Shown here: one piece after another, positions 15,087 to 34,748 of the stretch | Layout: each line of letters begins with the position of its first letter | How positions within the stretch are numbered: position 1 is the stretch's first letter | Assembly (NCBI GenBank): GCA_040755395.1 | Contig: JBFMAX010000002.1 | Span: 186,001-250,000, forward strand | DNA from: Nitrospirota bacterium | GTDB taxonomy: Bacteria; Nitrospirota; Nitrospiria; Nitrospirales; Nitrospiraceae | Direction: 5' to 3' | DNA length: 64,000 nt | Translations under genes and position numbers: made by a program | Notes under the pieces: generated by a model | Seen by the model: the letters and a program-made list of their open reading frames with translations, nothing else | Told to the model about the DNA's origin: nothing | The model's database searches: none

Positions 15087-15150
15087 GCGAGAGGCAAGGG
15101 GCTCAGGGCGAGGGGGAAGCAACTCCGGCCTCTAGCCTCGCGCCTATTTT
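15087..15150. repeat. intergenic repeat, 24-mer shared with 20357-20380
   Basis: The spacer holds GCGAGAGGCAAGGGGC (15087-15102), also found inside hrpB. Bases 15127-15150 are the exact reverse complement of the 24 bases at 20357-20380. It lies between the CPBP-like gene and the end of the 202-residue membrane protein gene. Confidence 0.7.
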
Positions 15151-19683: not shown

Positions 19684-19766
19684 GCGGGAAACCGCATAGC
19701 GATACCCAGAGCCGTCCGTTCACGCCGGAAGGATGACGAGTGCTTCAGAAAGGAGGGACCCCGTAT

Positions 19767-20147
19767 ATGAGGTGCGAATATGTCTTGACGGTCGGGGGAA
19801 CCGTGCTCCTGTTCGCAACTACGGTGGCGCTGGGCCAAAGCCGGCATTTGACCGATGCCATCACCCATACCCAAGCGGCGATCGCGCAAGGTAAGCAGGG
19901 ATATCCGGATGCGCTTGCGGCACAGGCGCGCGAGGCGCTCAGACATGCGGAGGCGGCGAAGAAGGAGGCTGCGGCTCCGCACCTGGATGAGGGCATTCGC
20001 TGGTTGAAGCAGGCGATCGAGCAGAGCACGCAAGGGCAGGGGGAAGCGGCGACCCAAGCGGCGGAACGCGCACTCGTGCAGTTTTCCGGGGACGGTCCGC
20101 CTCCGGCCCAATCCGCCCAGTCCCCACAGGAAGAAGGCGGATATTAG
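19767..20147 (+). CDS. SmbP-like secreted helical protein with few histidines
   Basis: The 126-residue protein has a signal peptide (GTVLLFATTVALGQS). The mature part repeats helices of the SmbP type: HLTDAITHTQAAIAQGKQG then ALRHAEAAKKEAAAPHLDEGIRWLKQAIEQ. SmbP from Nitrosomonas binds copper and other metals through many His spaced by seven. Here most of those are Gln, Ala or Lys, leaving about four His, so strong metal binding is doubtful. AAGGAGGG precedes the ATG. A Pro/Gln-rich acidic tail ends the protein. The closest family assignment is SmbP-like, but the function may have changed. Confidence 0.6.
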   Translation: MRCEYVLTVGGTVLLFATTVALGQSRHLTDAITHTQAAIAQGKQGYPDALAAQAREALRHAEAAKKEAAAPHLDEGIRWLKQAIEQSTQGQGEAATQAAERALVQFSGDGPPPAQSAQSPQEEGGY

Positions 20148-20155
20148 CACTGGTA

Positions 20156-20314
20156 TGAAAATGCGGGTCCTGTCACCGACCAGCCGGGTACCCGTTGCTC
20201 CTCTCCGTTTGCAACGGGTGCAAGCTCGCACCCCGCCCACACCCGCCAGGCGGGTACCCGAGGGACCCCGCTGCGCGCGGACAGGCGCCCAGGTCGGTGC
20301 CACCCGCATTTTCA
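20156..20314. repeat. long hairpin repeat element, copy 1
   Basis: A perfect 13-base terminal inverted repeat (TGAAAATGCGGGT at 20156-20168; its complement at 20302-20314) encloses a second paired arm (20174-20181 with 20292-20299). Inner hairpins follow, such as CCCGTTGC/GCAACGGG around 20190-20217. A GC-rich core GGACCCCGCTGCGCGC is shared with copy 2 at 33705-33807. Arms differ between the copies in compensating ways. Not protein-coding. Confidence 0.75.
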
Positions 20315-20356
20315 TGCTCCAGGGTGGCCACTTGGTGGCCATGAATTACTGCTTTG

Positions 20357-20432
20357 AAAATAGGCGCGAGGCTAGAGGCCCGCGGCTAGAGGTCTGAGTC
20401 TCTCCCCTTTGCCCCGAGCTCCTTGCTTCTTG
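20357..20432. repeat. GGCGCGAGGCTAGAGGC-family repeat
   Basis: The first 24 bases (20357-20380) are the reverse complement of 15127-15150. A second GGCTAGAGG unit and a pyrimidine-rich part follow (GCCCCGAGCTCCTTGCTTCTTGCC, two pieces). Confidence 0.65.
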
Positions 20433-20538
20433 CCCGTTCATGATGTTCATCGTGCGCGGGTGAGCCATCGCTCATGAGCACTGTGGTGGACAAGACGACG
20501 GAATAACCGAAAGAGACAACCGCTTCGCGTGATTCGGA

Positions 20539-30177: not shown

Positions 30178-33633
<3,456 letters not shown>

Positions 33634-33704
33634 GGGGTGACTCAGCGGCGGATTCTAGTCGGGAGGGTGGGGGATGTCAAATTGAGGGGAAGGGGGATAA
33701 GAAA

Positions 33705-33807
33705 CTTGCGGGTCCTGTCGCTGACCAGCCCAGCCGTGCTCGCACCCCGCCCGGTGTAGGGACCCCGCTGCGCGCAGCTGAGCGCCCTGGTCAGCGCCAC
33801 CCGCAAG
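33705..33807. repeat. long hairpin repeat element, copy 2
   Basis: Shorter copy of the element at 20156-20314. Its arms CTTGCGGGT (33705-33713) with ACCCGCAAG (33799-33807), and CGCTGACC (33719-33726) with GGTCAGCG (33789-33796), pair perfectly. The core GGACCCCGCTGCGCGC is shared. It is in the region upstream of dnaE. Confidence 0.75.
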
Positions 33808-33870
33808 TCGCAGAACACGCCGACGCCTTCAGTTTGATGGAGAGGTGGAGGATGCCCCGTGTACTCTCTG

Positions 33871-34038
33871 GGGAAAAGGAAAAGGGGTCGGGGAAAAGGA
33901 AAAGGGGTCGGGAGTCGTTTCGTTACGTATGACATGATAGGCGAGAGCACCAGCGGCCACGCGGGGACGACAGCGCCCGGATGCGCTCCTACGGGAATCG
34001 CGGACCTTCTGTCAAGAATCGACTCCCGACCCCTTTTC
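33871..34038. repeat. two tandem 20-bp copies plus 19-bp inverted copy
   Basis: GGGAAAAGGAAAAGGGGTCG occurs twice in tandem (33871-33890, 33891-33910). GAAAAGGGGTCGGGAGTCG (33899-33917) is repeated as its exact reverse complement at 34020-34038, 102 bases away. The inverted copy runs into the last codons of the PIN toxin gene. Confidence 0.8.
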
Positions 34039-34446
34039 TTGCTCGTTACCCGTAAGAAGCTCGAGGAAGTCGGTCAACCGGATCAGCCGCACACCTTTGT
34101 AAGTCCCAAGTATCAGGAGATGCCGATCGCCTGTGACAATGGAGTCCGCATGGGCGTGAACCGCGCACTCGAGGATGCGATTGTCGGGTTCATCTTCTAC
34201 GACACGGAGACGGGAAGTGGTCCTGACGACGATGGCCACGCGGCTGATCGCTTGCACGAATTCCCGCGTCTTCTCCTCCGCCCAGTCGAACTTGCTCTGG
34301 AGGACCGTCGCCGTCTCGGTGAGGATCGGGACTGAAGTGAAGAGTTCGAATCTTCCGCGGAGGGCGCCGAGGTAGGCTTCTTCCGCCCGGCCGCCGGGAA
34401 TCCCCAAGGCTGACACATAGATGTTCGTGTCGAAGACGACGCGCAC
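34012..34446 (-). CDS. PIN-domain toxin (putative RNase)
   Basis: The 144-residue protein has the PIN pattern: VVFDTNIYVSAL with the first Asp (D5), a middle Glu (LTETATVL), then EDEPDNRILECA and ADSIVTGDRHLL with the later aspartates. PIN toxins are Mg-dependent RNases of type II systems. The start is 2 bases after the stop of the small ribbon-helix-helix gene, so this is the toxin half of a TA operon. The last residues (EKGSGVDS) are encoded by a copy of the 19-bp repeat, suggesting that the original C-terminus was changed by repeat insertion. Confidence 0.85.
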   Translation of the reverse strand: MRVVFDTNIYVSALGIPGGRAEEAYLGALRGRFELFTSVPILTETATVLQSKFDWAEEKTREFVQAISRVAIVVRTTSRLRVVEDEPDNRILECAVHAHADSIVTGDRHLLILGTYKGVRLIRLTDFLELLTGNEQEKGSGVDS

Positions 34447-34448
34447 GG

Positions 34449-34694
34449 TCAGCGGTCCTGGAAGACCAGGGCTTCGACATCGGCTTCCGTCAGCACCCCT
34501 TTCTTGCGCGCCTGTCTGGCACCATAGCGCTGAAGTGCGAGAAACTCCTCCTCCCGCCGGCGCTGCTCGTACACGGAGACCATCTCACGGAAGAGCTGGC
34601 TCTTGTTCTTCGCCTCAGCCTTGGCCAGCTTCTCGAACTTGGTCGCCAACTCGGAGGGGACCGAGACTGTGAGTGGCACGCGTCCACGCTTCAT
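34449..34694 (-). CDS. ribbon-helix-helix antitoxin
   Basis: The 81-residue protein has an RHH (CopG/MetJ-like) N-terminus: VPLTVSVPSELATKFEKLAKAEAKNKSQLFREMVSVY. A helical tail follows that should wrap the PIN partner. The start at 34694 has GAGGAGGAG upstream. It precedes the PIN gene with 2 bases between, the usual antitoxin-first order. The promoter and an overlapping palindrome just upstream fit autorepression. Confidence 0.85.
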   Translation of the reverse strand: MKRGRVPLTVSVPSELATKFEKLAKAEAKNKSQLFREMVSVYEQRRREEEFLALQRYGARQARKKGVLTEADVEALVFQDR

Positions 34695-34707
34695 TTTCTC
34701 CTCCTCA

Positions 34708-34748
34708 CTGTATGACAAAATTATACAGTCGCTCGGGGCATCGGTCAA
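34708..34748 (-). promoter_or_regulatory. TA operon promoter with overlapping operator palindrome
   Basis: On the minus strand TTGACC (34743-34748) and TATAAT (34720-34725) are 17 bases apart. A palindrome CTGTAT-N9-ATACAG (34708-34713 / 34723-34728) covers the -10 and start. This is a typical site for RHH antitoxin repression. Two direct copies of GAGGGAATTTAA (34760-34771, 34776-34787) lie farther upstream. Confidence 0.7.

Follow-up and report, generated by a model that had tools for sequence, protein, structure and literature searches.

Miniature inverted-repeat transposable elements (MITEs) such as ERIC, NEMIS and YPAL are non-coding hairpins of about 100–150 bp that lie in transcribed spacers, occur in narrow groups and have mostly fixed arms. 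The element analysed here, a long hairpin found twice in a 64-kb stretch of the genome of a Nitrospirota bacterium (Nitrospiraceae; GenBank assembly GCA_040755395.1, contig JBFMAX010000002.1, positions 186,001 to 250,000; hereafter the window), is a non-coding spacer hairpin of similar size, but its arms are free, its loops are fixed, and it occurs in at least ten phyla. Integron attC sites are recognised as folded hairpins, combine a conserved base box with free inner stems, and stand behind the stop codon of a gene. The element has the same layout in the same position; it differs in that its ends read GCGGGT/ACCCGC, RYYYAAC/GTTRRRY boxes and cassette arrays are absent, and full-length IntI is mostly missing.

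Repetitive extragenic palindromic (REP) elements and bacterial interspersed mosaic elements (BIMEs), with their GTAG and CGTC super-families, are multi-copy spacer palindromes that lie mostly behind genes, occur in many phyla and are retained in operons (PMC3733652). The element shares their high copy number, extragenic placement and palindromic build. However, REPs are 20–40 bp long and carry an unpaired GTAG or CGTC tag, whereas the core of the element measures 92–145 nt, contains internal loops, has no tag at either end and shows no association with a gene for a REP-associated tyrosine transposase (RAYT). Protective intercistronic hairpins of the malE-malF type are a known mechanism; they stand between co-transcribed genes and do not need a U-tract (PMC5927463). 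The element is likewise a hairpin between genes and, by analogy, may affect the mRNA in the same way; the known hairpins, however, are not one sequence family, whereas here a single family stands at many unrelated genes. An intrinsic terminator was rejected because the flanks vary among copies and T runs are mostly missing from them; the one subfamily that comes near a terminator is the ATTTTC-flanked one in the source genome.

A repeat family in at least ten phyla

The element is one repeat family of about 100 bases that is present in Nitrospirota and in roughly a dozen further phyla, at least ten bacterial phyla in all. Each copy is a single long hairpin with the base stem GCGGGT/ACCCGC (stem 1), an internal loop CCTGT/CC and two further stems (stems 2 and 3). 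At least a dozen exact left halves were found in the source genome by pattern search. A covariance model was built from 17 copies and used to search the genome and its relatives, as the first-pass annotation had proposed. This gave at least 28 copies in the source genome at E <= 1e-3 and matches in 76 of the 147 sampled Nitrospiraceae genomes, and the 71 genomes without any match served as the negative control of the model.

The exact pattern GCGGGTCCTGTC-N70-100-GCCACCCGC, run on a collection of 84,980 species, returned at least 119 stretches; among the 119 matches listed, stem 2 was also paired in 98, although it was absent from the pattern. These 98 belonged to Nitrospirota, Acidobacteriota, Actinomycetota, Omnitrophota, Rokubacteria, Aminicenantes, Krumholzibacteriota, Elusimicrobiota, Chloroflexota, Myxococcota and several groups of the candidate phyla radiation (CPR). 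By phylum field none of the 98 paired matches listed came from Bacillota, Bacteroidota or Pseudomonadota (one was titled Deltaproteobacteria), and the pattern matches of Pseudomonadota among those listed did not pair in stem 2. A broader covariance model of 81 sequences found 1–35 copies in each of 15 genomes of other phyla, with 29, 31 and 35 copies in an Aminicenantes, a Krumholzibacteriota and a Solirubrobacterales genome, respectively, and 22 and 8 copies in small genomes of Omnitrophota (1.2 Mb) and CPR (1.1 Mb), respectively. The window had no Rfam match above the gathering threshold, a lax search of five related loci gave chance-like matches only, and nothing was found in a literature search for the motif string. 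The family was previously unlisted and is best filed as new, unusually widespread structured dispersed repeats.

The first-pass annotation had described the two window copies as spacer hairpins in which at least three base pairs had changed on both sides. Hairpins were found at both sites, one behind a PF16785 gene and one beside a dnaE-like gene, and they were the only two copies when the 64-kb window was searched. The two-sided changes numbered exactly three. Stem 2 reads CACCGACC/GGTCGGTG in copy 1 and CGCTGACC/GGTCAGCG in copy 2, with two pairs changed on both sides, and one pair of the outer arm is swapped, A-T in copy 1 and T-A in copy 2. Against dinucleotide shuffles, the folding z was -5.2 for copy 1 and -4.1 for copy 2 as RNA, and the other strand of copy 2, folded as DNA, also gave -4.1. 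Copy 1 is longer because of palindromic inserts in its upper part (CGGGTACCCGTTGC..GCAACGGGTGCAAG plus a second). The features are as follows.

20157–20313, + strand: copy 1, whole hairpin with outer arms GAAAAT/ATTTTC
20163–20307, + strand: copy 1, core GCGGGT...ACCCGC
20163–20168, + strand: copy 1, stem 1 left, GCGGGT
20169–20173, + strand: copy 1, invariant internal loop, left side, CCTGT
20174–20181, + strand: copy 1, stem 2 left, CACCGACC
20185–20260 (limits approximate, from comparison with 97-nt copies), + strand: copy 1, upper part with nested palindromic inserts CGGGTACCCGTTGC..GCAACGGGTGCAAG and ACACCCGCC..GGCGGGTACCCG
20292–20299, + strand: copy 1, stem 2 right, GGTCGGTG
20300–20301, + strand: copy 1, CC loop
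20302–20307, + strand: copy 1, stem 1 right, ACCCGC
33704–33808, + strand: copy 2, whole hairpin with outer arms ACTT/AAGT
33708–33804, + strand: copy 2, core of 97 nt, the standard form
33719–33726, + strand: copy 2, stem 2 left, CGCTGACC
33789–33796, + strand: copy 2, stem 2 right, GGTCAGCG
19740–20147, + strand: gene for a small metal-binding protein (PF16785) upstream of copy 1, stop 15 nt ahead of the core
30178–33633, - strand: gene of 1151 aa, which we take to be dnaE-like by recognition of its sequence rather than a domain scan, start 75 nt left of copy 2

Fold, position and constraint in place

Stem 1 was paired in 99.6% of cells and the adjoining CCTGT/CC loop hardly varied, in part because these letters were required by the collection search. 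Stems 2 and 3 were not fixed by that search; the cross-phylum sequences had been selected beforehand for pairing in stem 2 but not in stem 3. Both stems are free in sequence, with 94.6% of cells paired in stem 2 (8 pairs) and 91.1% in stem 3 (9 pairs). Two-sided changes were found in 354 cells versus 88.5 in shuffles, and the signal fell to 25–44 when the partner was slid by 1–3 columns. Double changes from C-G to G-C were frequent. In the upper loop, the letters CTCGC...CTGCGCGC and [G/C]CCC (the CCC of the right side) were conserved. The first-pass annotation had argued that the fold is kept and not merely the sequence, and that a search yielding no other copies, or others with unpaired arms, would count against this. 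Further copies occur in the genome, the family and many phyla, with 94.5% of pair cells formed over all stems, and the claim is borne out. What two copies had not made visible was that the loops are the invariant part and that the element is high-copy, cross-phylum and stop-codon-proximal.

The same division was found within a single genome. Among 12 full-length copies in one Krumholzibacteriota genome, 2 of the 67 columns outside stems 1 and 2 varied, compared with 8 of 16 in stem 2; stem 2 was fully paired in 11 of the 12, and changes almost always fell on both arms. Thus, stem 2 is nearly free, and stem 3 and the loops are fixed, within one genome. Because the unpaired letters are fixed and the paired arms change together, the folded shape must be read, either by cells or by the element. 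The first flanking bases pair as well, at 99 and 100 of 155 copies for positions 1 and 2, respectively, versus about 39 by shuffling, and this pairing fades by position 8–9. Such extensions are often specific to a single copy. At nuoA, the outer arm on the left consists of the end of the coding sequence, stop codon included, and is matched by a complementary right flank (GAATGGGATTGA/TCAATCCCATTTC in locus L330). Related-looking hairpins with quite different stems were seen at other loci (L305, L308, L321–L323; L306, L310, L320; L324, L336–L339, L374–L380); they have common TGCTCGC...GCGCGC upper-loop letters and sometimes GGCCACCCGTCC ends, and may represent sister families.

Once genes had been called on either side of the element, 69 copies were counted 0–40 nt after the stop of a gene in the same direction, compared with 22 after that of an oppositely directed gene; when related loci were collapsed, the numbers were 59 and 22 (p = 5e-5). 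The upstream genes are diverse, and all three stop codons occur. Among their products are proteins that we take, by recognition of sequence, to be NuoA, EF-G, GatB, DNA polymerase I and PurC. That the copies lie behind stops in the sense orientation suggests a function at the transcript level.

Orthologous copies keep the same upstream gene, and the downstream gene may differ. The element is retained across genera at the ZnDH, AIM24-like and nuoA-nuoB orthologs, with paired changes such as CAGCGAGG/CCTCGCTG to CAGGGAGG/CCTCCCTG. Nine nuoA-nuoB spacers from three genera were compared in pairs. The mean difference per site was 0.000 for the CCTGT/CC loop and 0.053 for the apical part, compared with 0.231 for stem 2 and 0.331 for the third codon positions of nuoA. 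The loops, far less diverged than these third positions, are thus under constraint where they stand. Stem 2 evolves at close to the rate of synonymous sites, but its paired positions change together. The nuoA-nuoB spacers of about 90 Nitrospiraceae genomes (L299–L388) often hold long palindromes from eight or more unrelated sequence families, and 31 of 81 fold with z < -3; this spacer repeatedly acquires or exchanges hairpins.

Repeats and genes around the copies

No transposase gene lies near the two window copies, as the first-pass annotation had stated, but 95 nt to the right of copy 2 stands a miniature element (33880–34040) whose inverted ends, AAAAGGGGTCGGGAGTC, exactly match the terminal repeat of a Y1 (TIRYT-type) transposase. 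The transposase gene sharing these ends lies elsewhere in the same genome (L087), and the miniature element is probably its non-autonomous derivative. At 34012–34748 on the - strand, a gene for a CopG-type ribbon-helix-helix protein precedes a PIN-domain gene, as is usual in VapBC toxin-antitoxin pairs. Directly behind copy 1, a second palindromic repeat (AGGCGCGAGGCTAGAGGCC...) occupies 20355–20490 and has an inverted copy at 15087–15150. It is part of a mosaic host repeat that ends in a GGTGAGCC..GGCTCATG..ACTG hairpin and has about 35 matches in the genome. Repeats are also nested within one another in Aminicenantes genome G163, where five copies of the element (L432–L434, L437, L438) hold in the apical loop a palindrome (AAAAAGGGGACACAGAAC..GTTCTGTGTCCCC) like those flanking Y1 transposase genes.

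Explanations of the element

The explanation we tentatively favour, with confidence just short of even, is that the element is a dispersed REP/MITE-like palindrome whose folded hairpin is recognised and which is retained between cistrons as a 3'-boundary hairpin. The short non-coding unit would multiply by being copied into spacers through a putative trans-acting factor. The parts read would be the base stem GCGGGT/ACCCGC, the adjoining CCTGT/CC loop and the conserved upper-loop letters, with the loops as likely contact points of the factor, and the two inner stems would need only to pair. After insertion, a copy may be retained as the 3'-boundary hairpin of the upstream gene. By analogy with the malE-malF REP, the simplest effect of the retained hairpin would be slower 3'-to-5' decay of the mRNA and an uncoupling of neighbouring cistrons. 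Position makes such an RNA boundary the preferred reading, and the preference is tempered by the scarcity of wobble pairs.

Several results weigh against this explanation. G.U pairs were not favoured on the mRNA strand: the covariance alignment held 6 G.T and 44 A.C mismatches, and such a shortfall of G.U is at odds with selection acting on an RNA stem. The 44:6 excess is largely common within lineages, and it was not significant when mismatches were accepted symmetrically and distinct cases were counted (37 G.T versus 49 A.C, p = 0.24); the wobble pairs therefore assign no strand. Folding energy was lower for the minus strand in 116 of 151 copies, a comparison in which the C-rich plus-strand loops are a confounder. 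No candidate for the factor was found among adjacent genes, Y1 transposases and integron integrases. A RAYT/Y1 transposase was rejected as mobiliser, as Y1 was present in 54 of the 76 genomes with the element and 45 of the 71 without it; about 119 cross-phylum loci contained no Y1 homologs, Y1 genes were not beside elements except at one locus about 1.1 kb away, and the Y1 transposase of the source genome has a different terminal repeat (AAAAGGGGTCGGGAGTC). An integron integrase was rejected likewise, with full-length IntI over the cut-off in just 6 of 60 genomes. Moreover, in many nuoA-nuoB spacers the hairpin is deleted, truncated or swapped for unrelated palindromes or a short plain spacer, and the element is therefore dispensable. 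A wider proposal, that each genomic copy is individually selected for its loops and fold across at least ten phyla including CPR, which would imply a conserved hairpin-reading factor at the 3' ends of housekeeping genes, is less likely than not.

A rival explanation is that the functional form is a folded single strand or extruded cruciform of DNA, to which a nucleoid, gyrase-like or recombination protein binds, as in BIMEs and attC sites. Watson-Crick pairs alone were favoured, G.T and A.C were both rare with A.C at least as common, C-G to G-C double changes were frequent, and the outer flanks pair at their first two positions. The sense bias would then reflect the direction of replication or transcription. 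Placement in one orientation 0–40 nt behind stops is most simply a property of the transcript, however, and no DNA-binding partner was found, so that we consider a DNA-level site rather unlikely.

It is more improbable that the element is a purely selfish, non-autonomous MITE or REP served by a transposase encoded elsewhere, its arms pairing since the transposition intermediate is a folded single strand. The element has terminal inverted repeats (stem 1 plus outer arms) and a non-coding nature in common with MITEs. A selfish origin agrees with near-identical copies that have the same flanks at unrelated loci. Acidobacterial copies sit within a long TA-flanked inverted repeat, TA|CAGGCGGTTTCATAACCT..AGGTTATGAAACCGCCTG|TA, with TA/TA flanks at 3 of the 4 copies for which both flanks were read; elsewhere an unsystematic look by eye recognised no target-site duplication. 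The source-genome subfamily lies within a larger repeat, TTGAAAAT-X-ATTTTCATGCTGC..GGTGAGCCGAAGGCTCATG, in which X is this hairpin or another palindromic repeat; an empty version of the TTGAAAAT-X-ATTTTCA host repeat was not found. Yet vertically inherited loops are conserved across genera while nearby synonymous sites have diverged, which is unlike a dead selfish copy. The element itself carries no gene, and an autonomous parent was rejected, as no split element halves flanked a gene in the retrieved loci (whole genomes were not scanned). No plasmid or phage copies were found, IMG/VR gave one viral contig, and there was no link to Y1. Least likely is a mechanical co-variation, in which one arm is rewritten from the other by template switching at the hairpin and pairing is restored without selection: the scarce wobble intermediates and the copy-specific palindromic flanks that extend into coding ends, as at nuoA, agree with it, but it leaves unexplained why the mispaired internal loops never turn into perfect palindromes and why stem 2 is variable and stem 3 is not in the same genome, and it is therefore at best a contributor.

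Short palindromic repeats are usually seen as lineage-specific transposase debris. One family with invariant loops and co-varying stems, found from Nitrospira to CPR and kept at nuoA-nuoB, points to a shared factor that reads the shape of the hairpin. Many natural copies differ in nothing but their stems and so form a ready experimental system, and the retention of dispersed bacterial repeats for a function in mRNA or the chromosome becomes testable with this family.
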